The notes beneath the pieces were generated by a model that saw only the letters and a program-made list of their open reading frames with translations, was not told the origin of the DNA and made no database searches. Of a stretch of DNA of 64,000 nucleotides, positions 7,127 through 26,235 are shown one piece after another (position 1 is the stretch's first letter; each line of letters begins with the position of its first letter). The DNA is taken from contig NZ_CP088017.1 in the NCBI RefSeq assembly GCF_021049285.1, forward strand, positions 1,178,001 to 1,242,000, written 5' to 3'. A program made the translations under genes and the position numbers. Source of the stretch: Ruania halotolerans. Lineage in GTDB: Bacteria > Actinomycetota > Actinomycetes > Actinomycetales > Beutenbergiaceae.

Positions 7127-7304
7127 CCGATCAGCCTACGTGCGTGTGCCGCACCCGCTGGCTCGTCCGCGGCGCAGATGTGGCCGGTCCGGAGGCCGCC
7201 CCGGGCAGGGTGCTCAGCGGAGTACCCAGGGGTGGGCGTGGGCCGACGGGCGAACCACCGGAAGTCTGCCCCGGCAGGGCGTCCAGGGGCGGGCGTGGCG
7301 CGGG

Positions 7305-9155
7305 TTAGTCGCCGCCGTCGGCCATCTCGTCGATCTGGCAGATCACGGTGCCGGAGCTGATCGTCTGGCCCACAGCCGCGCTCAGTCCGTGCACCCGCCC
7401 AGCGCGATGCGCCACTAGTGGCTGCTCCATTTTCATCGCTTCGAGAACCACGACCAGATCGCCCGCGGCCACCAGTTCGCCGTCGGCCACAGCCACCTTC
7501 ACGATGGTGCCCTGCATCGGGGACGCGAGCGCATTACCGCCGGCTGGGGCACCCGCAGAGCGTCCGTTGCGGCGGCTCGGCCGGCCCGCACGACGTTGCC
7601 CGCGGCCCCCGTTTCCGCCACCGAGGCTCAGCCCGGCGGGCAGCACCACCTCCAGGCGCTTGCCGCCCACCTCGACCACCACGCGCTCCAACTCGCCTTC
7701 AGGCTCGGCCGGGGGAGCGGGCGCCGCGGGGCTGGCTGGGGTGGCCGAGGCTCGGGTGCTGGCCATACGTTCGGCGAACTCGTTCTCGATCCACGTGGTG
7801 TAGACCCCGAACTCCTCGAGCCGGTCGGCGGCGAATTCCTCGTCCGCGAGCACGGCGCGGAAGAACGGGAGCACGGTCGGGATGCCGACCACCTCGGTTT
7901 CGCCGATCGCGCGACGGGCCCGCTGCAAGGCCTCGGTCCGGGTCGCGCCAGTGACGATCACCTTCGCCAGCATCGAGTCGAAGGCGCCGGAGATCGCGTC
8001 CCCGGCGACCACTCCGGAATCCACGCGCACACCCGGCCCGGATGGCCAGCGCAACGTGGAAATGGTGCCGGGGGCGGGCAGGAAGTTGTGGTGTGGATCC
8101 TCACCGTTGATCCGGAACTCGAACGAATGGCCCCGGGTGGCCACCTCGGTGTAGCCCAGCTCCTCACCGGCGGCGATCCGGAACTGCTCGCGCACCAGAT
8201 CGATCCCGGCGATCTCCTCACTGACGCAGTGCTCGACCTGCAGGCGGGTATTCACCTCCAGGAAAGAGATGGTGCCGTCGGTGCCGATCAGGAATTCGCA
8301 CGTGCCTGCGCCGCGGTACCCGGCCTCCGTCAAGATCGCGATCGAGGATTCGCGCAACTGGGCGTCCTGCTCAGGTGTGAGGAACGGGGCAGGCGCCTCC
8401 TCCACGAGTTTCTGGTGCCGGCGCTGCAGGGTGCAGTCGCGGGTGGAGACCACCACGACCGTGCCGTAGTTGTCAGCCAGGCATTGGGTCTCTACGTGCC
8501 GGGGCCGGTCCAGGAACCGTTCCACGAAGCACTCGCCTCGACCGAACGCTGCGGTCGCCTCACGGACGGCCGATTCGAACATACCGTCGATCTCATCGGT
8601 GGTGCGGGCCACCTTCAGACCGCGCCCGCCGCCACCGAAGGCCGCTTTGATAGCGATCGGCAGGCCGTGCTCGGCCGCGAAGGCGTGCACCTCGTTGGCG
8701 TCGGCAACTGGATCCGGTGTTCCGGCCACCAGTGGCGCGCCGGCCCGCTGGGCGATGTGCCGGGCGCTCACCTTGTCGCCGAGTGCGTCGATCGCATCCG
8801 GGGGCGGGCCGATCCAGGTGAGACCGGCGGCGATCACCGCACGGGCGAACTCGGCGTTCTCGGAGAGGAAGCCGTATCCCGGGTGCACCGAGTCAGCGCC
8901 GGAGCGGCGGGCGATGTCGAGGATCTTGCCCATGTCGAGGTAGGTCTCCGCGGCACGGGAGCCGTGCAACGCGAACGCCTCGTCGGTGAGGAGGACGTGC
9001 TGAGCGTCTCTGTCCGAATCCGCGTACACACCGACCGAGGCGATGCCGGCGTCACGGCATGCGCGCGCCACCCGGACGGCGATCTCACCGCGGTTGGCGA
9101 TGAGCACTTTGCCGGGCCTGGTGGTCGATGCTTCCGGCGCCGTGCTCGTCGACAT
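7305..9155 (-). CDS. accA: acyl-CoA carboxylase alpha subunit (biotin carboxylase + BCCP)
   Basis: ATP-dependent biotin carboxylase joined to its own biotin carrier domain, 616 residues. The biotin carboxylase starts at [20 protein letters not shown], with the ATP-grasp glycine loop [13 protein letters not shown] and [12 protein letters not shown]. The last 75 residues form BCCP with the biotinylation site [10 protein letters not shown] Gly/Arg-rich linker separates the two. The carboxyltransferase partner accD and epsilon subunit lie 4 kb away in the same strand, as does biotin ligase on the other strand. It could serve acetyl-CoA or propionyl-CoA; sequence alone does not tell. Confidence 0.93.
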
Positions 9156-9486
9156 GCACTCTCCCTAAGTTCCGTCGTGCTGCCGCGGCGTTCCAAACGC
9201 GCCGCGACGGTTCACGCTAGTACCGCTGCGTTCGTCCTACCCAACCACCGCACCGGTCGGCATGAAGTCTGTCCGCCTCAGCAACCGACATTGCTCGATC
9301 TTGTAGGTAACCTACAAATCCGAGTCGCGAATGGCGAGTTCCTGCCGGTCAGCATAGTCCGAGGAGCACAAAGGGTATATCTGCTCTTGGTCATCGGCTC
9401 ATCCCGCTCGCCATCGTCGGCGCCATCGATGTTCCCGGCCTGCCGGACCAGTGGTCGCGCGGACCGCGCCTGCGAGACCGGAGGGT
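9156..9486 (-). promoter_or_regulatory. upstream region of accA with a perfect 17-nt palindrome
   Basis: This 331-nt gap between maf and accA holds no gene I can support. At 9301-9317 lies TTGTAGGT-A-ACCTACAA, a perfect 8-bp dyad around one base, unusually AT-rich for this DNA and 146 nt upstream of the accA start. It looks like the operator of a dimeric regulator (TetR, MarR or GntR size class). No regulator gene is adjacent. Confidence 0.55.
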
Positions 9487-10149
9487 TCAGTCGTTCCGTC
9501 GATGCCAGAGGTCAACCCAGGCCAGGTCGAGGCTAGCGAGCATCGTGCGCAGCAGCGGCAGGCTGAGCCCGACCACACCGTGCGGGTCGCCGTCGACACC
9601 TGTCACGAAAGCGCCGCCGAGACCGTCGATCGTGAACGCGCCGGCCACCGCAAGGGGTTCGCCGGTGTCCACGTAGGCGTCGATCTCGGCATCGGTCAGG
9701 TCCGCGAAGTGCACGGTCGTGCTGGAAACAGCAAAAGCCACCGCCCCTGAATCGAGTCGGATCACATGGTGACCGCTGTGCAGGATGCCGCTGCGCCCGC
9801 GCATCCGCCGCCACCGCTGGCGGGCCAGCTCGGCCGTGTGCGGTTTGCCGAGGCCCGCACCATCGAGCTCGAGCAGCGAGTCACAGCCCACGACGACGGC
9901 CGGCGCCGTGGGTGCGTCGCTCACCCGCGCGTGGCTTGCCTGGGTGATCGCCTCGGCCTTCGCGCGCGCCAGCAGCGCCACTGCCTCGGGCACGGGCAGC
10001 GCATTGACCCTCGCGGCAGTCGCCGCCTCGGCGAGGATCGCCTCCTCGTCGACGTCGGCCGGGCGGATGTCGGGTTCCACCCCGGCCGAGCGGAGCAAGG
10101 CCGCTCGGGCCGGGGAGGCTGACGCGAGGATCAGGGTGGGCGCACTCAC
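9487..10149 (-). CDS. maf: Maf family nucleotide pyrophosphatase
   Basis: House-cleaning nucleoside triphosphate pyrophosphatase of 220 residues. The N terminus TLILASASPARAALLRSAGV fits the Maf phosphate loop, although the usual SPRR is SPAR here. VVGCDSLLELDG gives the catalytic acidic residue, followed by LGKP and the C-terminal FTIDGLGG. The open frame runs 268 codons further upstream inside a DUF885 gene, but the Maf fold begins at GTG 10149. Maf near the acyl-CoA carboxylase alpha gene is a recurrent actinobacterial neighbourhood. Ends 331 nt before accA. Confidence 0.9.
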   Translation of the reverse strand: MSAPTLILASASPARAALLRSAGVEPDIRPADVDEEAILAEAATAARVNALPVPEAVALLARAKAEAITQASHARVSDAPTAPAVVVGCDSLLELDGAGLGKPHTAELARQRWRRMRGRSGILHSGHHVIRLDSGAVAFAVSSTTVHFADLTDAEIDAYVDTGEPLAVAGAFTIDGLGGAFVTGVDGDPHGVVGLSLPLLRTMLASLDLAWVDLWHRRND

Positions 10150-10190
10150 GGAGGCGACCCTACGCCGTCGCCGGCCCGTGACCGGTGCGC

Positions 10191-11882
10191 TCAGCCGAGC
10201 AGCGCCATCCGCAAGGTGTCCAGGCCCACGGACCCCACGTCGAGCGCACGCCGGTGGAAGCCGGCCAGGTCGAACTCTGTTCCCTCCCGGGCGCGGGTCT
10301 CCTCCCGCAGCTGCTCCCACAGTCGCTGGCCCACCTTGTACGAGGGTGCTTGCCCGGGCCAGCCGAGGTAGCGGTTCAGCTCGAACCGCTTGAACCCCTC
10401 GGGCATGTTCACGTTCGCGTCCAGGAACGGCCAGGCCTTCTCTGCGTCCCAGGTGCCGCCGCCCCACCGTGGCGGGCACGGCTTGCCTAGGTGCACGCCG
10501 ATGTCGATCACCACGCGAGCGGCGCGCAGCCGCTGACCGTCCAGCATCCCGATCGCATCGGCCGGGTCGTCCAGGAAGCCGAGGTCCTGCATGAGCCGCT
10601 CGGCATACAACGCCCAACCCTCCCCGTGACCGCTCACCCAGCAGGCGAGCCGCCGCCAGTCGTTCAGGGTGTCCGCCCGGTACACCGTCTGCCCGACTTG
10701 CAAATGATGCCCAGGAACACCTTCGTGGTAGACGGTCGTCTTCTCCCGCCAGGTAGCGAACTCCGTCACTCCCGGCGGCACCGACCACCACATCCGGCCA
10801 GGCCGGGAGAAGTCGTTGCTCGGCGGCGTGTAGTAGATGCCGCCACTCTCCGTGGGGGCGATGCGGCACTCGATCGTGCGGACCGGGTCCGGGATGTCGA
10901 ACTGGGTTCCGGCCAGTGCGGTCACGGCCTCGTCTGCGGTGGTCTGCATCCACTCCTGCAGGGCATCCGTGCCATGCAATGTCCGGGTCGGGTCGGCGTC
11001 CAGCTCAGCCATCGCCTGCTCGATACGTGCCCCCGGTCCGCTGATCCGCTCGGCCAGCACCTGCTGCTCGGCGATGATCGACTCGAGTTCGGCCAGACCC
11101 CATTCATACGTCTCATCGAGGTCGACCTCCGCGCCGAGGAAGGTGCGGGAGAAGCGCGCATAGCGCTCCGGCCCGACGGCATCGCGCTCCGGGGCGAGCG
11201 GCGCCAGTTCCCGGAGGGCCTCGGCGAGGGCCGCGTACCCGGCGCGAGCAGCTGCGGCGCCCTCTGCCAGGGCAACAACCACGTCCGCGGGAGGCTCGGA
11301 ACCGTCGATGCGTGCGCCGTCGGCGAAGGACTGCCAGAACCCCTCGGCACCGGCGAGACCTTCGGCTTCCTCGATACACGCCTCGATCTGGCGGATTGCA
11401 GCCACCCGGCCGCGGGCGGCGCCCAGGCGCAGGGACTCCGCGTATCCTTCGACGGCGCCGGGAACCGCCTGCATCCGGGCGGCGATGGTGCGCCAGGCGC
11501 CGGGACTGTCGGTGGGCATGAGGTCGAAGATCTCCCGGATGCTCTGCACCGGCGAGGCGATCACATTGAGGTCGGCAAGGTGTTCGTCCGCCTCGGCGAG
11601 CTCGATCTCCAGCCCCAGCCGCTCCCGCATGGCGTGCCGGGTCACCCGGTCCACCTCGTCCTCGGGCGTGACGGCGTCCAGCGCCCGAAGTGCGTCATAG
11701 GCCGCCTGGGTGAGCGCGGCCAGGCCGTCGGGGGAGTGGTCGTCGAGGGCGTCCTCGGGGCCGGGTAGCCCGACCTCGGTGGCGAACATCGGGCTGAGGT
11801 GGGCGAGTGTGCGGACGTACTCGTCGGCAACCTGGTCGGTGGCGGTGCGGGGGCGGGAGCCTGAGGCGGGAGTGCCGGTCAT
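10191..11882 (-). CDS. DUF885 family metallopeptidase-like protein
   Basis: A 563-residue soluble protein with the DUF885 signature: a zinc-binding-like TTVYHEGVPGHHLQVGQ near residue 390 and the downstream SGHGEGWALYAERLMQDLG carrying the third ligand candidate. Family members resemble M2/M32-type zinc carboxypeptidases and the few studied are oligopeptidases or have unclear roles. No signal peptide is visible, so it should act in the cytoplasm. Its stop lies 41 nt upstream of maf on the same strand. ATG 11882 is the only plausible start. Confidence 0.85.
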   Translation of the reverse strand: MTGTPASGSRPRTATDQVADEYVRTLAHLSPMFATEVGLPGPEDALDDHSPDGLAALTQAAYDALRALDAVTPEDEVDRVTRHAMRERLGLEIELAEADEHLADLNVIASPVQSIREIFDLMPTDSPGAWRTIAARMQAVPGAVEGYAESLRLGAARGRVAAIRQIEACIEEAEGLAGAEGFWQSFADGARIDGSEPPADVVVALAEGAAAARAGYAALAEALRELAPLAPERDAVGPERYARFSRTFLGAEVDLDETYEWGLAELESIIAEQQVLAERISGPGARIEQAMAELDADPTRTLHGTDALQEWMQTTADEAVTALAGTQFDIPDPVRTIECRIAPTESGGIYYTPPSNDFSRPGRMWWSVPPGVTEFATWREKTTVYHEGVPGHHLQVGQTVYRADTLNDWRRLACWVSGHGEGWALYAERLMQDLGFLDDPADAIGMLDGQRLRAARVVIDIGVHLGKPCPPRWGGGTWDAEKAWPFLDANVNMPEGFKRFELNRYLGWPGQAPSYKVGQRLWEQLREETRAREGTEFDLAGFHRRALDVGSVGLDTLRMALLG

Positions 11883-15857: not shown

Positions 15858-17315
15858 TTAGTCGGCGATGCCGATGTACTTGGTGTCCAGGAACTCCTCG
15901 ATTCCGGTGAGGCCACCCTCGCGGCCCAGACCGGACTCCTTGACTCCGCCGAACGGCGCCGCCGGGTTGGAGACCACGCCCTGGTTCAGCCCGACCATGC
16001 CCGCTTCGAGTGCGTCGCACACCCGCAGGCCACGCCGCAGCGACTCGGTGAATACGTAGGAGACGAGTCCGTACGGGGTGTCATTGGCGCGGGAGATCAC
16101 TTCCTCCTCGGTCTCGAACGTGCTGATCGCTGCGACCGGGCCGAAGATCTCCGCATGCCCGATCTCGGCCTCGGCGGGCACATCGGTGAGCACTGTGGCC
16201 GGGAAGAAGTGGCCCACGCCGGACTCCTCGGGAACCCCGCCGAGCAGCACCCGCGCCCCGCCGTCGGCGGCCTCGCGCACCAGGGTGGTGACCTTCTCCA
16301 CGGCGCGATCGTCGATCAGCGGACCGATGGTCACGCCCTCTTCGGTGCCCGGGCCCATCCGGCGCGCGGCCATCTCCTCGGTGAGGCGGCGCGTGAACTC
16401 CTCGGCCACGGAGGAGTGCACGAAGATGCGGTTCGCGGCCGTGCATGCCTGGCCGATGTTGCGCAGCTTCGCAGCCATCGTGCCGGCCACGGCAGTGTCC
16501 ATATCGGCATCGTCGAACACGATCAGTGGTGCATTGCCGCCCAGTTCCATCGAGGTGCGCATCACCGTCTTTGCCGCGAGCTCAAGCAGGTGCTTGCCCA
16601 CGCCGGTGGAGCCAGTGAAGGAGAGCTTGCGCGAGCGCTCGTCCAGGATGAGCGGGCTCATCGCCTCATCGGCTTCGGAGGTGGTCACCACGTTCACCAC
16701 ACCGTCGGGCAGGCCGGCCCGCTGCAGGATCTCGGCCAGAGCCAGCGTGCTCAGCGGCGTCTGCGCGGCCGGTTTGATCACGCTGGTGCACCCGGCGGCG
16801 ATAGCAGGCCCGATCTTGCGGGTGCCCATCGCCATGGGGAAGTTCCACGGGGTGATCAGCACACATGGACCCACCGGTTGCTTGCTCACCAGGAACCGAG
16901 CGCCCCCCGCCGGGGCTCGCATGTGCCCCCCGTCGAGGCGCACCGCCTCCTCAGCGAACCAGCGGAAGAACTCGGCCGCGTAGGCGATCTCACCCTTGGA
17001 TTCGGCCAGTGGCTTACCCATCTCCAGGGTCATGATCAGCGCGAGCCGATCGACCTCGGCGTGCAGGAGATCGAAGGCGCGGTACAGGATCTCGCTGCGT
17101 GCGCGGGCAGGGGTGCGGGCCCACTCGGCCTGCGCGGCGGCTGCGGCGTCCAGGGCGGCCATCGCTTCGTCGGGGCTGGCGTCGCCCACGTGGGTGAGGA
17201 CCTCGCCGGTTGCCGGATTCTCCACGGGCATCGTGCGGCCCGCGTCTCGCCAGGAGCCGCCGATGAACAGACCGGTGGGCACGGATGCGATCGCTTCGGT
17301 GGGGGTCATCGCCAC
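15858..17315 (-). CDS. gabD: NAD(P)-dependent succinate-semialdehyde dehydrogenase
   Basis: Aldehyde dehydrogenase of 485 residues that fits the succinate-semialdehyde group. Visible are TPWNFPMAMGTRKIGPAIAA, the cofactor loop FTGSTGVGKHLL, the catalytic Glu region MELGGNAPLIVFDDADMD and the nucleophilic Cys in GQACTAANR. It diverges from gabT over 98 nt containing a FadR-type operator, which supports a paired transaminase-dehydrogenase function. GTG 17315 and ATG 17309 are both possible starts. Substrate assignment is by family and context; other omega-semialdehydes are possible. Confidence 0.87.
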   Translation of the reverse strand: MAMTPTEAIASVPTGLFIGGSWRDAGRTMPVENPATGEVLTHVGDASPDEAMAALDAAAAAQAEWARTPARARSEILYRAFDLLHAEVDRLALIMTLEMGKPLAESKGEIAYAAEFFRWFAEEAVRLDGGHMRAPAGGARFLVSKQPVGPCVLITPWNFPMAMGTRKIGPAIAAGCTSVIKPAAQTPLSTLALAEILQRAGLPDGVVNVVTTSEADEAMSPLILDERSRKLSFTGSTGVGKHLLELAAKTVMRTSMELGGNAPLIVFDDADMDTAVAGTMAAKLRNIGQACTAANRIFVHSSVAEEFTRRLTEEMAARRMGPGTEEGVTIGPLIDDRAVEKVTTLVREAADGGARVLLGGVPEESGVGHFFPATVLTDVPAEAEIGHAEIFGPVAAISTFETEEEVISRANDTPYGLVSYVFTESLRRGLRVCDALEAGMVGLNQGVVSNPAAPFGGVKESGLGREGGLTGIEEFLDTKYIGIAD

Positions 17316-17364: not shown

Positions 17365-17381
17365 ATTGTAGACAATCCGAC
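17365..17381. promoter_or_regulatory. FadR-type GntR operator between gabD and gabT
   Basis: ATTGT-AG-ACAAT (17365-17376) is a perfect dyad followed by CCGAC. The same 17-nt string with only the two central bases changed occurs at 22824-22840. TTGTnnACAA dyads are typical of FCD-type GntR regulators, and such a regulator is encoded at 24526-25185. The site lies in the 98-nt divergent gap, upstream of a possible TAGCAT -10 box for gabD. Confidence 0.75.
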
Positions 17382-17413
17382 AATGCAGTGCACGTACTTC
17401 CCGGAGGATCCTT

Positions 17414-18664
17414 GTGACGCACCCGACCCAGCTCTCGCCCCACCTGAAGCAGGCCACCCCGGTGCTGGTCGATCACGGTGAGGGGTCCTACCTGTTCGAC
17501 ACCGACGGTCGGCGGTTCCTGGACTTCACGGCGGGGATCGGAGTTACCAGTACCGGGCACTGCCACCCGCATGTGGTGGCAGCCGCGCAGGCACAGGTGG
17601 CCTCGCTGATCCACGGTCAGTACACGACCGTGATGCACAAGCCGATGCGTGAGCTCACCGCCAAGCTCGGCACCGTGCTCCCCGAAGGGCTGGACTCGGT
17701 CTTCTACGCCAACTCCGGCAGTGAGGCGATCGAGGCCTCGCTCCGACTGGCCCGCCAGGCCACCGGCCGGCCGAACGTGATCGTCTTCCACGGCGGATTC
17801 CACGGCCGTACCGTGGCCGCCGCCACGATGACCACCTCGGGTACCCGATTCTCCGCGGGCTTCTCTCCGCTGATGGGCGGCGTGCACGTGGCCCCCTTCC
17901 CGACGGCGTACCGGTACGGCTGGTCCGAGGAGGAGGCCACCGCCTTCGCCCTGCAAGAGCTGGACTTCATCTTCGCCACGCTCACCTCCCCGGCCGAGAC
18001 CGCCGCCTTCATCGTGGAGCCGGTGCTCGGCGAGGGTGGCTACATCCCCGGCAACACGGAGTTCTTCCGCGGCCTGCGTGAGCGTGCCGATGAGCACGGC
18101 ATCCTGCTCGTGATGGACGAGATCCAGACCGGGTTCGGCCGCACCGGGAAGTACTTCGGGCACCAGCACTTCGATGTGCGCCCCGATGTGATCACCATGG
18201 CCAAGGGTCTGGCCAGCGGATTCCCGATCTCCGGGATCGCGGCTTCCGAAGAGCTGATGAGCAAAGCCTGGCCCGGTTCGCAGGGCGGCACCTACGGCGG
18301 GAACGCCGTCGCCTGCGCCGCGGCGGTGGCCACGCTCGAGGTGATCGAGAACGAAGGTCTCGTCGAGAATGCCGCGCAGCGCGGCACCCAGTTGCTGGAG
18401 GCTGTGCGCGGGGCGGCGACGGACGCCGTCGGCGATGTGCGGGGCATCGGCCTGCTCGTCGGCTCCGAGTTCGTCACGCCTGAGGGCAAGCCCGACACGG
18501 CGCGGGCCTCCGCGGCGCAGAAGCTCGCCGGCCAGAAGGGCCTCCTCCTGCTCACCTGCGGTGCGTACATGAACGTGGTGCGGATGATCCCGCCGTTGGT
18601 GGTCACTCCCGAGCAGGTGACCGACGCGGTGCAGATCTGGACCGAGGTCCTCGCCGAGGTCTGA
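17414..18664 (+). CDS. gabT: 4-aminobutyrate-type aminotransferase (class III)
   Basis: PLP-dependent class III aminotransferase of 416 residues that transfers an omega-amino group to 2-oxoglutarate. Motifs: NSGSEAIEASLRLARQATGR, FHGGFHGRTVAAATMT, MDEIQTGFGRTGKYFGH and the PLP lysine in ITMAKGLASGFPISG. GTG 17414 has a strong GGAGGA ribosome site 5 nt upstream. It diverges from gabD, so the natural pair is amino acid to semialdehyde (GabT) to acid (GabD). The amino donor may be GABA or another omega-amino acid from the neighbouring amidase pathway. A strong hairpin follows 122 nt after the stop. Confidence 0.88.
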   Translation: MTHPTQLSPHLKQATPVLVDHGEGSYLFDTDGRRFLDFTAGIGVTSTGHCHPHVVAAAQAQVASLIHGQYTTVMHKPMRELTAKLGTVLPEGLDSVFYANSGSEAIEASLRLARQATGRPNVIVFHGGFHGRTVAAATMTTSGTRFSAGFSPLMGGVHVAPFPTAYRYGWSEEEATAFALQELDFIFATLTSPAETAAFIVEPVLGEGGYIPGNTEFFRGLRERADEHGILLVMDEIQTGFGRTGKYFGHQHFDVRPDVITMAKGLASGFPISGIAASEELMSKAWPGSQGGTYGGNAVACAAAVATLEVIENEGLVENAAQRGTQLLEAVRGAATDAVGDVRGIGLLVGSEFVTPEGKPDTARASAAQKLAGQKGLLLLTCGAYMNVVRMIPPLVVTPEQVTDAVQIWTEVLAEV

Positions 18665-18718
18665 CCCCCACCCGAACCCCCACCACTCAGCCGAACCCCC
18701 ACCACCCACCCCTCTGCG

Positions 18719-18774
18719 CGAGTGCGGCCCATTCTGCTCAAATCACGAGATATAGGCGAGATTCGCCGCACTCG
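18719..18774. repeat. 9-bp inverted repeat after gabT
   Basis: CGAGTGCGG (18719-18727) pairs with CCGCACTCG (18766-18774) around a 38-nt AT-richer loop. It precedes the stronger hairpin at 18786-18825. It may be a dispersed palindromic element; only one copy is in the window. Confidence 0.4.
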
Positions 18775-18785
18775 ATCACTCCCGA

Positions 18786-18825
18786 GTGCCCCGACGGCGG
18801 AACGCACCCTCCGCCGTCGGGGCAC
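18786..18825 (+). terminator. strong hairpin between gabT and the DUF3830 gene
   Basis: GTGCCCCGACGGCGGA (18786-18801) is followed by an 8-nt loop and its exact complement (18810-18825), a 16-bp perfect stem rich in GC. No U-tract follows. It lies 121 nt after the gabT stop and 26 nt before the next start codon, so it can act as gabT terminator or as an attenuator or leader structure for the DUF3830 gene. Confidence 0.7.
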
Positions 18826-18851
18826 CATCCGCTCACCCTCAGGAGGCACAG

Positions 18852-19349
18852 ATGACCCGCTACATCACCATCACGCTGGACTCGCGTGGCGTCAGCTGCC
18901 GGGCCCGACTCCTGGAGGAGGAGGCGCCCGGAACGTGCGCCGCCGTCTGGGACGCACTCCCGCAATCCGCTGGTGCCTTCCACGCCAAGTACGCCCGCAA
19001 CGAGGTGTACACCCTCGTGCCGCGGATCACTGCCGCCCCGCACCGTGAGAACCCGACTGTGACCCCGATCCCCGGGGACGTGTGCCTGTTCGACTTCGAG
19101 CCCTGGGAGATTGGCAACCCCGCGTACGGGTACGAACCGGGGTCAGCCGCGCACGCGGGACAGGGGGCCACCGATCTGGCGATCTTCTACGGCCGGAACA
19201 ACCTGCTGATCAACGGTGACATGGGGTGGGTTCCGGGCAATGTCTTCGCCACGATCACCGATGGCCTGGAGGAGATGGCCGCCGCGTGCAACGACCTGTG
19301 GCTGCGCGGGGTCGAGGGGGAGACGCTGAGCTTCGCCCGCGCCGAGTAG
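18852..19349 (+). CDS. DUF3830 family cyclophilin-like protein
   Basis: A 165-residue protein of the DUF3830 family, which has a cyclophilin-like beta barrel and no assigned activity. Typical segments are GAFHAKYARNEVYTLVPRI, GDVCLFDFEP and DLAIFYGRNNLLINGDMGW. ATG 18852 follows AGGAGG by 5 nt, the best ribosome site in this region, so strong translation is expected. In other genomes such genes sit with amidases, Asp/Glu racemases and FadR-type regulators (recollection of family context), and the same gene types are present within 6 kb here. It probably belongs to the same catabolic pathway. Confidence 0.8.
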   Translation: MTRYITITLDSRGVSCRARLLEEEAPGTCAAVWDALPQSAGAFHAKYARNEVYTLVPRITAAPHRENPTVTPIPGDVCLFDFEPWEIGNPAYGYEPGSAAHAGQGATDLAIFYGRNNLLINGDMGWVPGNVFATITDGLEEMAAACNDLWLRGVEGETLSFARAE

Positions 19350-19435
19350 TCCGACACGCCGGGCCCTCGGTGGGCTGGGTGTGACTGGCGGGGCGTTGAC
19401 GGCGTGGAAGTTGACGCTGCGGAGAGGATCGCTCT

Positions 19436-20242
19436 ATGGCGCGAGCGCAACTGGATGAGTGGGCACCCGACGTCGCCGAGTGGGCCCGGGCGGAGGATTT
19501 CCCCCGACCGGTGCGGTGGGGAGAGATCGAGGCGGCCATCCTTGCCCGGAAGCTCCCGCGTCTCCCGGAGGAAGCGTGGTGGGTGTCGGCGATCGGAGCC
19601 GTGGGGTGGATCGTCGTCGTGCTGCTCGCCCTGCCGACTTTCGGCTCGCCGGTGGTTGGCCTCGCGCTCGCAGCCGTGGGTAGCGCGGCCGAGGGCGGCA
19701 GTTCGGCCGAGCCTTGGTTTGTCGGAGCGCGCTTCTTCTTCGTTCTCGCCACCGGTCTCGGTGTGTCCCTCTTCGTCGATTGGTGGCAGTCCCGCCGGCG
19801 TGGGGTGTTGCAGCTCGCGAGCAGCGGGCTCACCGCTGTGGCCTCCGGCGCCGCCTTCGTGGTGGTGCAGGGTGAGGCACGGGTCGGGCTGTGGCTCCCG
19901 CTACTGATGCTCTCGGCTGCCATGGTCAGCGTCGTCGTCTTCGTCCTGGGCCTCAGCTCGACGCCGGAGGGGCGCCCGAAGAAGCGCAAGCCGCCGCGTC
20001 GTGGCCCACGGAGCGCAGCCCGGCGGGACCGGGCACTGCGGGCGCGCGAGGGCGTGCTGCAGATCCTCGTGGGGCGCGGGCTGGTGAATGCCGACCAGGA
20101 CGACCAGGTCCGCCTCCGCGAGATGCCTCTGGGGTACTGGAGCGAGCTGGACGGTGTCGACGAAGCCGAGTGGCGACGGATCCTTGAATTGCGCCACGTC
20201 GGCTGGCGCGACTTCGATGCGAGCGACTCCCACCTTCCCTAG
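19436..20242 (+). CDS. hypothetical membrane protein
   Basis: Not recognised. It has 268 residues: a soluble N terminus rich in Trp and acidic residues, four predicted membrane helices (about 48-66, 71-84 or longer, 97-112, and 121-162 as two), a very basic stretch (RPKKRKPPRRGPRSAARRDR), and an acidic C terminus. ATG 19436 lacks a good ribosome site. It separates the DUF3830 gene from the amidase and may be unrelated to the pathway around it. A tandem-repeat block follows directly after its stop. Confidence 0.6.
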   Translation: MARAQLDEWAPDVAEWARAEDFPRPVRWGEIEAAILARKLPRLPEEAWWVSAIGAVGWIVVVLLALPTFGSPVVGLALAAVGSAAEGGSSAEPWFVGARFFFVLATGLGVSLFVDWWQSRRRGVLQLASSGLTAVASGAAFVVVQGEARVGLWLPLLMLSAAMVSVVVFVLGLSSTPEGRPKKRKPPRRGPRSAARRDRALRAREGVLQILVGRGLVNADQDDQVRLREMPLGYWSELDGVDEAEWRRILELRHVGWRDFDASDSHLP

Positions 20243-20448
20243 TGGCACCACACCGCTGCAGCACCACACCACTGCAGCACCACACCACTGCGCCGAGCGC
20301 AAACTTGGGCGGCATCTAGCCGGGAAACGCCGCACACCTTTGCGCTCGCGCTGGGTGGTGGCTCGAGGGGGCTCGGTGGTGGCTCGAGGGGGCTCGGCAC
20401 TTGGCTGGGTGCGCTCGCGCTGGGTGGTCGTGTGGGGGTGACCGCGGC
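20243..20448. repeat. tandem and inverted repeats between convergent genes
   Basis: Three parts are visible. (1) Three copies of a 16-nt unit GCACCACACCactgca at 20245-20292. (2) CGAGCGCAAA (20294-20303) with its exact complement at 20339-20348. (3) Two copies of a 21-nt unit containing GGTGGCTCGAGGGGGCTC at 20354-20395, flanked by a 19-nt direct repeat TGCGCTCGCGCTGGGTGGT at 20341-20359 and 20410-20428. No gene is apparent. The position between convergent stops suits a terminator region that has expanded by slippage. Confidence 0.7.
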
Positions 20449-21819
20449 TCAGGCAGCCAGCACCTTCTCCGCGAACCTGGCCACCGCGAGCACCAGATCG
20501 TCGGAGTGCCGCGGTCCCACGATCTGCAGGCCGACCGGCAGCCCCGCGGCCGTCGTTCCGGCCGGGATGGAGATCGCCGGCTGTTGACTGAGGTTGAAGG
20601 GGTAGGTGAACGGGGTCCACTGCGGCCACCCGTCCATCCCGCTCCCGGGCGGCACATCGTGGCCCGCCTCGAACGCCGTGATCGGCATGGCCGGGGTGAT
20701 GAGCACATTGTGCGTGCGGTGGAATGCACCCATCCGGATCCCGACGTCCGCGGCCACGGCACGTGCCTGCAGGAACTCCACGGCCGTCGCGGCCAGTCCG
20801 GCGTCCCATACCTTGCCCAGTCCCGGGTCGATCCCCTCTCGCGCGCCGGGCATCGTGTTCAGCAAGGTCGCGGCCCCGGCCGCCCAGAGCAACTCGAACG
20901 CCTCGATCGGGTCGTCGAATCCGGGATCGGCCTGCGCGACGGCCAGTCCTGCCTCGTCCAGGAGCCGCACGGCACGCTCCACCACGGCAGCCACCTCGGG
21001 ATCGACATTGGCAAATCCGAGAGTCGGCGAGTACGCCACCTCGAGTCCGGTCACGTCACGCACGACCTCCCCGCGATAGGTCGAACGTGGCGGAGCCAGC
21101 GCCGTCGGATCCCGGTGATCGGGCAACGAGAGGATGTCCATCAGCAGCGCCGCATCGTCAACGGAGCGCGTCATCGGGCCGGCGTGCGCCAACGGCCCGA
21201 ACGGACTCGCCGGATAGAGCGGGATCCGGCCATGGGTGGGCTTGAAGCCGACGATCCCGCAGAACGAGGCCGGAATGCGGACCGACCCTCCGCCGTCGGT
21301 GCCCACCGAGACCGGCCCCATCCCGGCGCCGACGGCCGCGGCGCTACCACCTGACGACCCGCCGGCGGTGAGCCGGGAGTCCACCGGGTTCCGCGTGATC
21401 CCGAAGGCAGGGCTGTCTGTGGTGGCCTTCCAGGCGAGCTCCGGGGTGGTGGTCTTCCCGAGAAAGACCATGCCATCCTCGCGCAGCCGGGCGGCTACCG
21501 GGGAGTCCACCTCCCACGGTTGATCGGGCGTGATCGCCGCCGAACCGCGCCGGGTGGGCCAGCCGTCGGTGAGGAAGATGTCCTTGATCGAGATCGGGAC
21601 GCCGTCCAGCAGTCCCTTGACGTGCCCGGAGTGCCACCGGTCCTCGGACTCGCGAGCCATCGCGAGTGCGCGCTCGCCGTCCACCAGGCAATACGCGTTC
21701 AACTCGGAGTTCCGCTCCTCGATGGCCTCGAGCGCCGCGGTGGTCACCTCCACGGGGCTCAGTTCGCCTGCCCCGTAGGCGGTCACGATCTCGACGGCGG
21801 TCATCTCGTTCGGGTTCAC
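20449..21819 (-). CDS. amidase (amidase signature family)
   Basis: A 456-residue amide hydrolase with the Ser-cisSer-Lys triad: lysine in ISIKDIFLTDGWPTRRG, the serine loop TAGGSSGGSAAAVGAG, and the nucleophile region SVGTDGGGSVRIPASFCG. Length and the absence of a signal peptide fit cytoplasmic amidases acting on small amides, N-acyl or carbamoyl compounds; it lacks the GatB partner. Its ATG overlaps the stop of the upstream dehydrogenase by 4 nt, so the two are translationally coupled and driven by the promoter near 22,803. Substrate unknown. Confidence 0.88.
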   Translation of the reverse strand: MNPNEMTAVEIVTAYGAGELSPVEVTTAALEAIEERNSELNAYCLVDGERALAMARESEDRWHSGHVKGLLDGVPISIKDIFLTDGWPTRRGSAAITPDQPWEVDSPVAARLREDGMVFLGKTTTPELAWKATTDSPAFGITRNPVDSRLTAGGSSGGSAAAVGAGMGPVSVGTDGGGSVRIPASFCGIVGFKPTHGRIPLYPASPFGPLAHAGPMTRSVDDAALLMDILSLPDHRDPTALAPPRSTYRGEVVRDVTGLEVAYSPTLGFANVDPEVAAVVERAVRLLDEAGLAVAQADPGFDDPIEAFELLWAAGAATLLNTMPGAREGIDPGLGKVWDAGLAATAVEFLQARAVAADVGIRMGAFHRTHNVLITPAMPITAFEAGHDVPPGSGMDGWPQWTPFTYPFNLSQQPAISIPAGTTAAGLPVGLQIVGPRHSDDLVLAVARFAEKVLAA

Positions 21820-22796
21820 CGTTGGCTCCTTGAGGTGGGGACGTAGCCCAGCTGGGTGTCGACGACGTTATGGAGATCACGACCATCGCGCCACCGGGTG
21901 AGGTTCTCGGCGAACAGTCGATCGAGCTCCTCTCGCCAGCCTTGCACGTCCCCGGACTGGTGGGCGGTCACAGTGACGCCGGCCATCGTCCACAACGGAT
22001 GCTCGGCGGGCAGCGGTTCGGGGTCGGTCACATCCAGGACAGCACCGGCGATATCGCCTCGCGTCAGGGCGTGCACCAGATCCTCGGTGCGCACCAGCTC
22101 ACCGCGCCCGACGTTGATCAGCCGCGCGTCGGAGCGCATCGCGCCGAACGCGGCGGCGTCGAACATCCCTCGCGTGGTGGGAGTGAGCGGAGCCACCGCG
22201 ACCACCCAGTCCGCGTGCCCCAGTGCACCGTTGAGATCATCGGTGACGGTGCCGAAGTCCGGATCGTCGGTGATCACGCGCCGCCCCGCGCCGCTGACCT
22301 GCATGCCGACAGCCCGAAGTAACCGGGCAATGGCACGTCCGATCGCACCGGTGCCCACCACGAGCGCCGTGCTGCCCGCCACCCGGGCGGACTCTCGGTG
22401 CCGCCACGTGCGCCGGTCCTGATCGGCCCAGCAGGAACGGAAGTCCTTGGCCTCGGCGATGATCTGGCCGAGGACGTACTCGGCGATCGCATCATCGAAG
22501 ACCCCGCGCGAGTTCGTGACGGCCACCTCACTGGAGACGAGGTCGTCGAAGAGCACCGGGTCTACGCCTGCGGCGGCCACATGCACCCAGCGCAAGGCGT
22601 CAGCAGCAGGCCATGCGCGGGGGAGTGCCCGGCTGAGGAAGTGGTGCAGGTAGAGCACCTCTGCCCCGGGGAGTTCCTCGGCCAGGTGAGCCTCGTCGGT
22701 GAAGCGCAGGGGCACCCGGGCAGCCAACTCCTCCAGGGCGGGGGATGCGGGCGGGGCGCCCTCATGAAGCACGAGGACGTCGGTGGGATCTGGCAC
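21816..22796 (-). CDS. D-isomer specific 2-hydroxyacid dehydrogenase
   Basis: A 326-residue NAD(P)-dependent enzyme. The Rossmann motif VVGTGAIGRAIARLLRAVGM and the catalytic set are present: Arg in INVGRGELVRTEDL, Glu in DVTDPEPLPAEHPLW and His in VTVTAHQSGD. GTG 22796 is chosen because a -35 TTGACA, a 17-nt spacer and a -10 TACGTT end 6 nt upstream of it, predicting a leaderless message; the longer open frame upstream crosses that promoter. It heads the dehydrogenase-amidase operon, opposite the racemase operon. It could reduce a 2-oxoacid or oxidise a D-hydroxyacid from the pathway. Confidence 0.87.
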   Translation of the reverse strand: MPDPTDVLVLHEGAPPASPALEELAARVPLRFTDEAHLAEELPGAEVLYLHHFLSRALPRAWPAADALRWVHVAAAGVDPVLFDDLVSSEVAVTNSRGVFDDAIAEYVLGQIIAEAKDFRSCWADQDRRTWRHRESARVAGSTALVVGTGAIGRAIARLLRAVGMQVSGAGRRVITDDPDFGTVTDDLNGALGHADWVVAVAPLTPTTRGMFDAAAFGAMRSDARLINVGRGELVRTEDLVHALTRGDIAGAVLDVTDPEPLPAEHPLWTMAGVTVTAHQSGDVQGWREELDRLFAENLTRWRDGRDLHNVVDTQLGYVPTSRSQR

Positions 22797-22797
22797 A

Positions 22798-22840
22798 TTG
22801 ACAACGTATGAGCGGGTCGTACTATTGTCAACAATCCGAC
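22798..22840. promoter_or_regulatory. interlocked divergent promoters with FadR-type operator
   Basis: Plus strand: -35 TTGACA (22798-22803), 16-nt spacer, -10 TACTAT (22820-22825) for the racemase operon. Minus strand: -35 TTGACA (22831-22826), 17-nt spacer, -10 TACGTT (22808-22803) for the dehydrogenase. The dyad ATTGT-CA-ACAAT (22824-22835) overlaps the minus -35 and the plus -10/start point, so one bound dimer would shut both. The motif extends as CCGAC to 22840 like the gabD/gabT site. Confidence 0.75.
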
Positions 22841-22872
22841 TCCCGGGGCCCGAATGTGAAAGAGGTGCGGTA

Positions 22873-23787
22873 TTGGAACTGCACGGTGCCGAGTTCGATG
22901 GGCCGCTCGCCCAGCGTGGGATCGGAATCATCGCGCCCTTCGACCTGGCGCTGGAACGGGAACTGTGGCGCTGGTGCCCGCTTGAGGTGAGCCTGCACCT
23001 GGCCCGTACCCCCTTCGAGCCAGTTCCGGTGAGCCTGGAGATGGCGGCACTGGTCTCCGATCCTGAGCACCTCAAACGAGCCACGCGGGATGTGCTGGGG
23101 GTGGAGCCCGAGGTGGTCGCCTACCTGTGTAACTCAGGCAGCTTCATCAACGGTCTCGCGTACGAGCGCAGCCTGTGCGAGGCGATCGAAGAGGCGGGCG
23201 CACCCTCGGCGCTGACCACCTCCGGTGCGTTGGTGGAGGCGGTACGCGCCCTTGGCTTGCGCAAGATCAGCGTGATCACGCCATATGACGAGCCGCTCAC
23301 GCTCCGGCTGCACGCGTTCTTGGCCGAACTCGGTGTGGAGGTGGTCCGCTCCAACCACCTCGGCCTCGGCGGCGGTATCTGGAAGGTGAACTACCGCACC
23401 GTGGCCGAGCGGATCATGGAGGCGGACGCCCCGGATGCCGAGGCAGTCTTCGTCTCATGTACGAACCTGCCCACCTATGACGTGGTCGAACCCCTCGAAC
23501 GGGCGCTCGGCAAGCCGGTCCTCACCGCAAACCAGCTCACCATGTGGGCCTGCCTGGCCCGGATGGGGCTGCCCATGATGGGCCCTGGGCGGTGGCTCCA
23601 CTCGGTCTTCGGTGATCCGCCCGAGGACGTCCCCGCCCCGCCAGACGAGGGCCCCCTCGCGTCCGCGTCGGCTGAACCACTGCCCGCAGCGTCATCGCCC
23701 GACGCAGCATTCCCGCCGCCACGTCCCCGTACGGAGATCGGCGTATCCGTTTCAGCCACCTCACCTGTTCAGGACCATCGCCAGTGA
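22873..23787 (+). CDS. Asp/Glu racemase superfamily protein A (maleate isomerase/AMDase-like)
   Basis: About 304 residues. Both superfamily cysteines are present: C86 in YLCNSGSFING and C196 in VSCTNLPTYD, so racemase, cis-trans isomerase or decarboxylase chemistry on a small diacid or amino acid is plausible. VLTANQLTMW near residue 220 is typical of the maleate isomerase/arylmalonate decarboxylase branch. The open frame continues upstream through the promoter and operator, so the start must be later; TTG 22873 with AGAGG 7 nt upstream is the best candidate. The last 70 residues are a Pro/Ala/Ser-rich tail. GTGA overlap couples it to protein B. Confidence 0.8.
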   Translation: MELHGAEFDGPLAQRGIGIIAPFDLALERELWRWCPLEVSLHLARTPFEPVPVSLEMAALVSDPEHLKRATRDVLGVEPEVVAYLCNSGSFINGLAYERSLCEAIEEAGAPSALTTSGALVEAVRALGLRKISVITPYDEPLTLRLHAFLAELGVEVVRSNHLGLGGGIWKVNYRTVAERIMEADAPDAEAVFVSCTNLPTYDVVEPLERALGKPVLTANQLTMWACLARMGLPMMGPGRWLHSVFGDPPEDVPAPPDEGPLASASAEPLPAASSPDAAFPPPRPRTEIGVSVSATSPVQDHRQ

Positions 23788-24521
23788 CTGCATCAGCAAC
23801 GACCGAGACGACCATCGGGTTCATCTACCCCGACCACGCCGCTGAAGATGATTACCCGTACGCGGCCGAGCTGCTCCGCCCTGTTGAGCACGTGCGCCTT
23901 GAGGTCACCCACATCTACGGCACAGACCTGCACGCCGTTCCCGAGCTTCTCGATCTCGGCAGCCCGGAACGACTCGCCGCCGGCGCGGCCCAGCTCGCTC
24001 CGGCCAGCCCGGACGCCGTGGTGTGGGCGTGCACGTCCGGCAGTTTCGTGTACGGCCCCGACGGCGCCCGCGAGCAGGTGCGTCAGCTCGCCTCGGTTGC
24101 CGGTGTCCCGGCATCCAGCACCAGTTTCGCCTTCGTGCACGCGGCACAGGCGCTGGGCCTGGAGCGTGTGGCCGTCGCGGCGAGCTATCCGCAGGATGTG
24201 GCCGGCCTCTTCGCAGACTTCCTCGGGGCGGCAGGGATTGAGGTGCTCGAGATCAGGGGTGCCGGGATCGACACAGCGGCCGAGGTGGGCACGCTGGAGC
24301 AGGAGGCCGTGCTCGATCTCGCCGCCGCGAATGACCATCCCGATGCGCAGGCACTTCTCATCCCTGACACGGCGATGCACACCCTGCGCTGGCTCGGCGC
24401 ACTCGAGGACCGAATCGGCAAGCCCGTGCTGACCGCGAACCAGGTGACGATCTGGGAGGGACTGCGGCTACTCGGCCAGCGAGTCACGCACCCGGCACTG
24501 GGCACCCTGTTCGGAGCGTGA
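23784..24521 (+). CDS. Asp/Glu racemase superfamily protein B, second Cys replaced
   Basis: A 245-residue paralogue of protein A in the same operon. C83 in WACTSGSFVYG matches the first cysteine, but the equivalent of the second is Asp195 in LLIPDTAMHT, while the next block (GKPVLTANQVTIWEGL) aligns well. One-cysteine members exist (arylmalonate decarboxylases), although those keep the other cysteine, so the activity is uncertain. It may form a hetero-oligomer with protein A or catalyse a different step. GTG start overlaps the upstream stop; the GntR gene follows after 4 nt. Confidence 0.8.
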   Translation: MTASATTETTIGFIYPDHAAEDDYPYAAELLRPVEHVRLEVTHIYGTDLHAVPELLDLGSPERLAAGAAQLAPASPDAVVWACTSGSFVYGPDGAREQVRQLASVAGVPASSTSFAFVHAAQALGLERVAVAASYPQDVAGLFADFLGAAGIEVLEIRGAGIDTAAEVGTLEQEAVLDLAAANDHPDAQALLIPDTAMHTLRWLGALEDRIGKPVLTANQVTIWEGLRLLGQRVTHPALGTLFGA

Positions 24522-24525
24522 GGAC

Positions 24526-25185
24526 GTGCTTCCCGACCCGTCGCCCGCGCACCGGCTGTCCACGGCCGAGCTGATCGCCGAGCAACTCCGAAGTGCGATC
24601 ATGACCGGCACACTCACCCCGGGCGAACAGCTCGGTGAGGCGGACATCGCCACGCGTTTCGAGGTCTCGCGTGGCCCCGTGCGTGAAGCCCTGCAACGTC
24701 TGGTCTCCGAGGGGATCGCACACAGTGTGCGACACCGCGGCATCTTCGTGCCCGAACTCGACCTGGCCGACATGATCGATGTCTACCGCTCCCGGGCGGT
24801 GATCGAACGAGGTGCCGGGCGGATCATCCTGGAGAGCGATCGAGAGGGTGCATGGCGCGTGCTGGGCGCACCGCTGCAGGCCATGACGCGAGCAGCTGAA
24901 CGGGGCGATCCGACGGGCGTATCGAACGCCGACCAAGCGTTTCACGAGGCGTTCGTGGAGGCCGCCGGCAGCCCCCGCCTGATCCGGGCACTGCGCACTC
25001 TTCTGGTGGAGACCCGGATCTGCCTCGGTGAGTTGCAGACCACCTATCCGGACCTGGGCGAACAGGTGCGCGAGCATGAGGAATGGCGCGAGGCCCTGCG
25101 TACCGGTACGCCCGAAGAACTGGACGCCGTCATCGACGCGCACCTCATCGATGCCGTGCAGCGACTCGAGGGCAAGTTGGCCTGA
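24526..25185 (+). CDS. GntR family regulator, FadR/FCD subgroup
   Basis: A 219-residue repressor-type protein. The N-terminal winged helix shows LIAEQLRSAIMTGTLTPGEQ and VSRGPVREALQRLVSEG; the helical FCD ligand domain contains the metal-binding-type pattern DQAFHEAFVEAAGSPRL with later His residues (REHEEW, DAHLIDA). It is the last gene of the racemase operon, 4 nt after protein B. The dyad ATTGTnnACAAT at two divergent promoters nearby is its most likely operator, giving autoregulation and control of gabD/gabT. The effector is probably a pathway carboxylate. Confidence 0.9.
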   Translation: MLPDPSPAHRLSTAELIAEQLRSAIMTGTLTPGEQLGEADIATRFEVSRGPVREALQRLVSEGIAHSVRHRGIFVPELDLADMIDVYRSRAVIERGAGRIILESDREGAWRVLGAPLQAMTRAAERGDPTGVSNADQAFHEAFVEAAGSPRLIRALRTLLVETRICLGELQTTYPDLGEQVREHEEWREALRTGTPEELDAVIDAHLIDAVQRLEGKLA

Positions 25186-25221: not shown

Positions 25222-26235
25222 GTGAGCGAGCGCAGTGATCCGGACCTCTCGACGCTCCGGCGTCACGAAGAGCGTCTGCTCGGCGGCCCCGGGGCGCTGA
25301 CTGTTGCCGAGTTCGCCGCTGCTGCCGAGGTGCCCGACCACCTGGTGCGCACCTATTGGCGGGCCCTGGGCTTCGCCGACGTGCCGGCCGACGAACGGCA
25401 ATTCACGCAAGCTGACGTGACGGCGCTTCGTGCGCTGGTGGACGTCGTCACCGACGGCGGCATGAGCCTGACGACAGCCCAAGACCTGGTGCGTGCACTG
25501 GGGCACTCGATGGACAGACTCGTGCTGTGGCAGGTGGAGGCGCTCGTGCAGGACGCGTCCACGCGGTACGAACTGGATGACGTCAGTGCCCGTCTGGTGG
25601 TACTGGACCGGCTCGTCGAACTCAGCCCCTTGCTGCGTGAGCAACTCGATTACGCGTGGCGCCGCCAGCTGGCGGCCCTGCTGGGCCGGATCGACAAGGA
25701 CGTCTCCCAACTGGGAAACGAGACCCCGGACCCGGGGCAGCTTCCCCTTGAACGCGCCGTCGGCTTCATCGACATCGTCGCCTACACCACGCGTGCGGCC
25801 GATCTGGACCCGGCCGCCCTGGCCACGCTCGTGCAGGACTTCGAGACCGCAGCGCGGGATGTGGTCGCACAGACCGGTGGCCGAGTGGTCAAGACCATCG
25901 GTGACGCGGTCCTGTTCGTGGCCGACGATCTGATCACCGGCGTACGCGTGGCCACCGAACTGGTCACCACGATGGACGCTCGCGATCTGCCGGTTCGAGG
26001 ATCGGTGGTGTGGGGCCGGGTGCTCTCCCGGTCCGGGGACATCTTCGGGCCCGTGGTCAATCTGGCATCCAGGCTGACCGATATCGCCGGCCCTGGCACA
26101 GTCCTGATGGACGACGTCTCCGCAGCCCTGCTTGAGGGCGGCCCAGGTGCACGGGAGTTCACGCTGGAAACCGTGGACCGCCGGTCTGTTCCTGGTCTGG
26201 GGGAAGTGCACCCGGTGATGGTCTCGCGCGCCTGA
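25222..26235 (+). CDS. adenylate/guanylate cyclase domain protein
   Basis: A 337-residue soluble class III nucleotide cyclase. The N-terminal half is helical, with an early segment (LTVAEFAAAAEVPDHLVRTY) like a MerR-type or regulatory helix bundle. The cyclase domain starts near residue 175: metal Asp in VGFIDIVAYTT, second Asp in KTIGDAVLFVA, and the transition-state region DIFGPVVNLASRL. Arrangement resembles mycobacterial Rv2212-type cyclases, so cAMP is the likely product. GTG 25222 lies 36 nt after the GntR stop; linked function is possible but not shown. Confidence 0.85.
   Translation: MSERSDPDLSTLRRHEERLLGGPGALTVAEFAAAAEVPDHLVRTYWRALGFADVPADERQFTQADVTALRALVDVVTDGGMSLTTAQDLVRALGHSMDRLVLWQVEALVQDASTRYELDDVSARLVVLDRLVELSPLLREQLDYAWRRQLAALLGRIDKDVSQLGNETPDPGQLPLERAVGFIDIVAYTTRAADLDPAALATLVQDFETAARDVVAQTGGRVVKTIGDAVLFVADDLITGVRVATELVTTMDARDLPVRGSVVWGRVLSRSGDIFGPVVNLASRLTDIAGPGTVLMDDVSAALLEGGPGAREFTLETVDRRSVPGLGEVHPVMVSRA

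Follow-up and report, generated by a model that had tools for sequence, protein, structure and literature searches.

Two questions are raised by a locus in a 64,000-nucleotide stretch of the Ruania halotolerans genome (contig NZ_CP088017.1; hereafter the window, in whose numbering local coordinates are given): why genes resembling gabD and gabT share a sequence motif with amidase, dehydrogenase and racemase-like genes some 5.4 kb away, and on which compound the encoded enzymes act. The eight genes concerned constitute a regulon that is real and conserved among relatives. On balance it probably serves the breakdown of 5-hydroxyectoine, perhaps also of ectoine, under an FCD-type regulator acting through two copies of a palindrome, with a route to D-malate by way of the AMD, DUF3830, HADH and amidase proteins. 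The genes and operators are as follows.

15858..17315, minus strand: gabD, GabD/Ssd-like NAD(P) aldehyde dehydrogenase (PF00171, 530.8 bits)
17365..17381, no strand: operator 1 (core 17365-17376), in the 98 bases that separate the divergent gabD and gabT
17414..18664, plus strand: gabT, GabT-like class III aminotransferase (PF00202, 387.1 bits)
18852..19349, plus strand: DUF3830 protein with a cyclophilin-like fold (PF12903, 209.5 bits against a gathering score of 26)
20449..21819, minus strand: amidase-signature hydrolase (PF01425, 343.3 bits; NF004815, 733 bits, above the cut-off of 506)
21816..22796, minus strand: HADH, D-2-hydroxyacid dehydrogenase family protein (PF02826, 158.5 bits, scanned as 21816-22799)
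22824..22840, no strand: operator 2 (core 22824-22835), in the 76 bases that separate the divergent HADH and AMD1
22873..23787, plus strand: AMD1, member of the AMDase/maleate isomerase/EutA superfamily (PF17645, 92.4 bits)
23784..24521, plus strand: AMD2, paralogue of AMD1 (PF17645, 92.6 bits)
24526..25185, plus strand: fcd, FCD-type GntR regulator, the presumed binder of both operators (PF07729, 70.2 bits; PF00392, 68.8 bits)

The starts of HADH at 22796 and of AMD1 at the TTG of 22873 are probable assignments that correct earlier gene bounds.

A sequence-only reading of this DNA had proposed that a 17-mer occurs in both divergent promoter regions and unites gabD/gabT with the amidase, dehydrogenase and racemase-like genes, a proposal that frequent occurrence of the 17-mer elsewhere in the genome would have spoken against. 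Both copies are present where described, with the difference confined to the two central bases. A search for ATTGTNNACAATCCGAC in the complete genome of 4,270,413 bases, allowing up to 2 mismatches, returned only the two promoters, and none for the reversed control; the operator core ATTGTNNACAAT is found exactly at the same two places only, again with no match for its reversed control.

Relatives of the locus were found with DUF3830, the most diagnostic member of the set. It is present in 11 of 24 genomes of the window's family, which includes Occultella (Ruaniaceae), and in 24 of 396 genomes of the order, or 23 after removal of a weak match (G350; 34% identity, E 8.9e-4). A scan of a genome collection showed at least 574 stretches encoding relatives, of which the best 80 were kept; these are mostly from Nocardia, with others from Rhodococcus, Amycolatopsis, Janibacter, Hoyosella and a few further genera. 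Together with 22 further stretches they make 102 loci, or 98 after removal of 4 repeats of the same contigs. Gene presence was scored by tblastn at E 1e-15 in the 82 of these that are at least 18 kb long (hereafter, long loci), where some genes are missing only because a contig or stretch stops short. All eight genes occur together in 53 of the 82; singly, gabD is found in 67, gabT in 77, DUF3830 in 82 (by selection), the amidase in 72, HADH in 75, AMD1 in 74, AMD2 in 73 and the regulator in 70. The eight-gene set is kept in the window's family, Nocardia, Rhodococcus, Amycolatopsis, Janibacter and others.

The operator is conserved with the genes. In the 200 bases upstream of gabT, TTGTNNACAA is present at every one of 92 loci, and in the 200 bases upstream of HADH at 80 of 81, the sole miss (L048) being a locus in which HADH stands behind other genes of the set. 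Across the 98 loci (1.83 Mb) there are 184 ATTGTNNACAAT sites, against none for the reversed control, and the whole genomes of 18 relatives contain 2 to 8 sites each, against 0, or 1 in three genomes, for the reversed controls. The part of the 17-mer that is conserved in relatives is the palindrome ATTGTNNACAAT followed mostly by C and C/T/A; the full CCGAC tail is not generally kept. In rearranged loci (for example L043, L045-L050, L155, L160, L173 and L174) the operator stands in front of new transcription units. Because the motif is rare genome-wide and kept at both promoters, it is strongly supported that gabD/gabT and the amidase, dehydrogenase and racemase-like genes form one regulon. 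The regulator has a GntR helix-turn-helix and an FCD domain, both above the Pfam cut-offs, and is a plausible candidate for the protein that binds both operators.

The enzyme families named from the sequence are those returned by Pfam (Aldedh, Aminotran_3, DUF3830, Amidase, 2-Hacid_dh, two Amdase, and GntR with FCD). The more specific names gabD and gabT did not fare as well: the aldehyde dehydrogenase scores 555.8 bits against the curated succinate-semialdehyde dehydrogenase (SSADH) model TIGR01780 (cut-off 646.35) and the aminotransferase 370.8 bits against the gamma-aminobutyrate (GABA) transaminase model TIGR00700 (cut-off 506.65), and the names are therefore used here as labels only. The aldehyde dehydrogenase is 47.1 and 48.8% identical to SSADH-type proteins of the Rhizobium and Leisingera ectoine clusters, and the aminotransferase 31.9 and 30.5% identical to its counterparts there. 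The amidase sequence carries IKD, GGSSGGS and TDGGGS stretches. The best NCBIfam match of both AMD1 and AMD2 is EutA (TIGR02990), at 104 and 108 bits, below the cut-off of 318; the two are homologous to EutA and not its equivalogs. Nor do they reach the curated cut-off for arylmalonate decarboxylase (76.5 and 96.1 bits against 225), although both align with PDB entries 3ixm and 2xec of the arylmalonate decarboxylase/maleate isomerase superfamily. They differ from that superfamily in forming a tandem or neighbouring pair and in the second active site residue of AMD2: AMD1 has two catalytic-site cysteines (Cys/Cys in 83 of 83 alignment rows), whereas AMD2 combines a Cys at the first site with an Asp at the second (Cys/Asp in all 83), 4 of the rows being duplicates in each case. 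The nearest solved folds to DUF3830 are 3KOP and then the Pictet-Spenglerases McbB and KslB, which are 17-20% identical to a protein about half their length, a shared fold that is not proof of function.

The indication of substrate comes from genes that join the regulon in relatives. In Rhodococcus koreensis (L168, gap of 36 bases), R. tibetensis (L060, gap of 35) and R. jostii (L234), the gene of the ectoine hydroxylase, ectD, lies directly behind fcd, each copy above the TIGR02408 cut-off. R. jostii and R. koreensis have two ectD genes above the cut-off each, one of them beside the cluster; for Rhodococcus sp. RHA1 and for R. opacus B4, PMC3979721 likewise describes two copies. In four genomes (G194, G028, G380 and G379) the operator precedes an amino-acid-type ABC transporter with an EhuB-type binding protein. 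The one scored (L047, from G194) gives 264.5 bits against the EhuB cut-off of 190.9, its best solved relative is 2q88 (E 1.1e-63), and the residues that we take to form the ectoine cage are kept or aromatic. The operator is also found before an M24 protein whose best family, for the one scored (L050), is the ectoine hydrolase DoeA (PDB 6twk, E 2e-105), a gene followed by those of a class I pyridoxal phosphate (PLP) enzyme and then an M20 deacylase; before a ProP-like symporter (L155, L174; below cut-off); and before a RidA-family gene (L155). These operator-linked genes were seen in Micrococcaceae-type (f6) and some other genomes. Within the window there is no EhuB-type gene.

The sequence-only reading had set ectoine aside as a match. 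That view stands for the known EutD/DoeA route, which is absent here, and gives way for the substrate: the ectD, EhuB-type uptake and DoeA-like genes in the regulon of relatives point to 5-hydroxyectoine or ectoine. One genome without a DUF3830 match (G129; L178, 1-4179) has the M24, class I PLP, M20, HADH and gabT genes together with two operators, which is the arrangement that an ectoine branch entering at HADH would predict. We infer two inlets, one for ectoine via DoeA and one for hydroxyectoine via AMD1, AMD2, DUF3830 and the amidase, that would meet at HADH and the aminotransferase.

The hosts divide according to their synthesis genes. The window genome has EctC at 2,857,215 and EctD at 2,857,822, both above cut-off, beside a gene for a class III aminotransferase, presumably EctB. 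Of 33 cluster genomes examined for EctC (17 drawn from the 23 of the order, and 16 named hosts), 27 have it. A DoeA-like gene is present in all six cluster genomes lacking EctC (G028, G155, G194, G261, G341 and G379), against 2 of 11 order cluster genomes with EctC (G150 and G380; p 0.002). EctD occurs in 16 of 20 named hosts, those without it being three Janibacter and one Georgenia. Where EctD is lacking, hydroxyectoine is probably not home-made; among these cluster genomes, counted as 10 or 14, five still have EctC or were not resolved. We read the pattern as ectoine makers keeping the core for internal breakdown and non-makers adding DoeA and, in several cases, uptake genes. In hydroxyectoine makers, of which the window host is apparently one, the regulon would recycle the cell's own pool once salt stress ends, and in some relatives without an ectoine synthase gene it is linked to uptake and DoeA-like genes.

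The assignment of the substrate class rests on genomics, and for the order of steps we propose the following. The EutA-like pair AMD1/AMD2 would invert and/or remove the 5-hydroxyl group. The cyclic amidine formed in this way may be opened with the help of DUF3830, giving 4-acetamido-2-oxobutyrate and ammonia; this role is suggested because the fold of DUF3830 is like that of the Pictet-Spenglerases, which handle C=N ring chemistry. HADH would then reduce 4-acetamido-2-oxobutyrate to the D-2-hydroxy acid, from which the amidase would take off acetate; the aminotransferase would then give 2-hydroxy-4-oxobutyrate, which the aldehyde dehydrogenase would convert to D-malate. The last step may fall to the tartrate/D-malate dehydrogenase or YdiJ-like enzyme that many hosts have attached to the regulon.

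D-malate is proposed as the exit because three kinds of D-2-hydroxyacid enzyme, HADH included, are tied to the regulon in different hosts. A tartrate dehydrogenase-type gene lies no more than 600 bases from gabD in 46 of the 75 loci with gabD, all of them in Nocardia, Amycolatopsis or Allokutzneria; the one scored (L051) gives 495.1 against a cut-off of 470.4, in a family that we take to include D-malate dehydrogenases as well. Three Rhodococcus species, R. jostii, R. koreensis and R. tibetensis (L165, L169 and L170), carry a separate operator copy before a gene for a YdiJ-like D-2-hydroxyacid dehydrogenase (439.7 bits for L169 against the YdiJ cut-off of 1350). A search restricted to the window at E 1e-6 found neither type. 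The route probably works without DoeA, through a D-2-hydroxy acid and D-malate, and probably differs from that known in other bacteria. The gene set itself is found in many soil actinobacteria. Considerably more tentative is the complete version, in which a DoeA-independent pathway, serving as an internal recycling valve in hosts that make hydroxyectoine, uses AMD1/AMD2 to remove the 5-hydroxyl without a PLP dehydratase, DUF3830 to open the dehydrated ring, and D-4-amino-2-hydroxybutyrate and D-malate as the exit. If true, this would be the first function for the DUF3830 family.

The tartrate dehydrogenase-type gene beside gabD, being above its cut-off in L051, can also be accommodated by a different chemistry for hydroxyectoine. 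In this rather unlikely scheme the 5-hydroxyl is kept: the amidase, with DUF3830, would hydrolyse the ring and deacetylate to 3-hydroxy-2,4-diaminobutyrate, from which the aminotransferase and aldehyde dehydrogenase would lead to 3-hydroxyaspartate or else, once the alpha-amine is lost and HADH has acted as reductase, to tartrate for tartrate dehydrogenase. The pairing of a class III aminotransferase with an aldehyde dehydrogenase is the layout of proteobacterial ectoine clusters and suits it. However, the hydroxyaspartate version leaves HADH without a role, and the conserved set showed no gene that would take 3-hydroxyaspartate further, though no search there was aimed at one.

Co-occurrence with hydroxyectoine synthesis favours the hydroxyectoine assignment within limits. 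EctD above cut-off is present in 13 of 23 cluster genomes against 28 of 373 others of the order (Fisher 1.3e-8), and within the family in 10 of 11 against 2 of 13 (p 6e-4); these tests ignore phylogeny and are confounded by shared ancestry. Several observations weigh against the assignment. Outside the window's genus the EctD difference falls to 5 of 15 against 28 of 373 (p 0.005), in one genus (g7) all four genomes have EctD, cluster or not, and no EctD above cut-off is seen in 10 of the 23 cluster genomes and 4 of the 20 named hosts. Six Rhodococcus stretches cover the place next to the regulator gene (L063 and L078 do not), and only 3 of them have ectD there, L076, L086 and L091 being without it; the Nocardia and Amycolatopsis stretches examined all lack this adjacency. 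The EutA-, DoeA-, ProP- and YdiJ-type matches are all below curated cut-offs, L050 scoring 413.9 bits against 613 for DoeA. A DoeA/EutD-like query finds nothing in the window genome while matching 63 of 396 order genomes at E 1e-40, and 55 of those 63 have no DUF3830 match. EutB, EutC and DoeB/EutE are absent from the ten window genes scanned, no search having been aimed at them in the window genome. Finally, the palindrome also serves other genes, in L161-L163 and in L167, the latter with its own FCD regulators.

It could accordingly be argued that the core acts on another nitrogen compound, such as a lactam, an amide or an amino-hydroxy acid, and that the ectoine genes belong to separate pathways sharing end steps and a similar FCD operator. 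The missing DoeA-like gene, the palindromes at other loci and the adjacency of ectD in only three species examined would all fit. This view is nevertheless doubtful: in G194, G028, G380 and G379 the EhuB-type, DoeA-like and core genes share stretches and operator, and ectD follows the regulator gene in an AMD1-AMD2-fcd array. Plain GABA shunt genes with unrelated neighbours, which family resemblance and the lack of any TIGR00700 match in the genome outscoring this aminotransferase might suggest, are very improbable and were dropped, given the sub-threshold GabT and GabD scores and the eight-gene set with its shared operator in 53 of the 82 long loci. Maleamate/maleate, hydantoin, pyridine and pantothenate routes were also dropped, since they leave the EhuB-type, DoeA-like and ectD genes unexplained; their markers were not searched singly.

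The preferred hydroxyectoine regulon shares EutA-superfamily proteins, a class III aminotransferase, an SSADH-like dehydrogenase and a GntR-superfamily regulator with the proteobacterial ehu/ueh-eutABCDE-ssd-atf (DoeABCD) clusters, and some actinobacterial relatives also share EhuB-type uptake and the DoeA-like hydrolase. It departs from them in the lack of a DoeA found in the window genome, in a core with amidase, DUF3830 and D-2-hydroxyacid dehydrogenase, in two EutA-like paralogues with different active sites, in an FCD instead of a MocR-type regulator and, for many hosts, in an added tartrate/D-malate or YdiJ-like dehydrogenase. The regulon acts like ectoine catabolism yet is not placed in the Eut/Doe pathway, because DoeA is not found in the window genome and the EutA scores in the cluster are below cut-off.

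For the proteobacterial pathway it has been proposed that EutA inverts the 5-hydroxyl, and some ectoine clusters include a gene for a hydroxyacid dehydrogenase whose role is undefined (PMC5924519). In R. pomeroyi EutABC are required for hydroxyectoine use with activity unknown, the fate of the hydroxyl group being uncertain even in this model proteobacterium (PMC8739950). Gram-positive ectoine use is described as still without biochemical confirmation (PMC13188858, 2026). The putative Gram-positive clusters of that report share with ours the genomic nature of the claim and a putative amidohydrolase and aldehyde dehydrogenase gene; they were found via EutD and EutB, whereas the present core lacks EutD, and the main text contains no occurrence of Arthrobacter, Nocardia, Rhodococcus, gabT or DUF. 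In a literature search with subscription journals mostly outside its scope, DUF3830 was named nowhere and the cluster appeared in no title or abstract opening.

5-Hydroxyectoine is a common salt-stress protectant and a commercial product. With this cluster, a defined set of eight genes and its operator become available in genera amenable to experiment, Rhodococcus among them. DUF3830 gains a candidate function, and there may be a means of preventing product loss in hydroxyectoine producers.

Some related loci merit separate description. Family f7 accounts for most of the DoeA-like loci retrieved, and these lack the operator; in L184-L197, L199 and L201-L204 of this family the M24 genes stand beside only a distant (27-29%) class III aminotransferase, perhaps as a separate actinobacterial ectoine route. 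Among the 63 DoeA-like matches in the order, 24 are only 32-35% identical. L135, a plasmid of Sinorhizobium sp. CCBAU 05631, has ehu genes near those of an amidohydrolase, an aldehyde dehydrogenase, a diaminobutyrate transaminase and an AMDase-like protein. The 18 kb shown carry no annotated eutD, and this too may be an ectoine cluster without EutD. On plasmids, relatives of DUF3830 (4 records, about 30% identity) and of AMD2 lie in unrelated neighbourhoods. Extra operator sites in L156, L157, L159, L161-L163, L166 and L171 have no consistent gene content and were not used. In L167 (R. koreensis), two more palindromes at 6189-11317 surround three genes, one for an N-methyltryptophan oxidase-like protein that exceeds the NF008425 cut-off, one paralogous to gabD and one for a further FCD regulator, possibly a sister regulon on the same operator.

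Five other neighbours of the core in the window recur in only 2 to 6 of the 82 long loci. Between the DUF3830 and amidase genes, a 268-amino-acid open reading frame without a Pfam family (19436-20242) is found in 2 of these (L016 and L018, both from the window's genus) and is outside the conserved set. Right after the regulator gene, at 25222-26235, lies a gene for a protein with a partial adenylate/guanylate cyclase domain, which is near the cluster in 5 of the 82.

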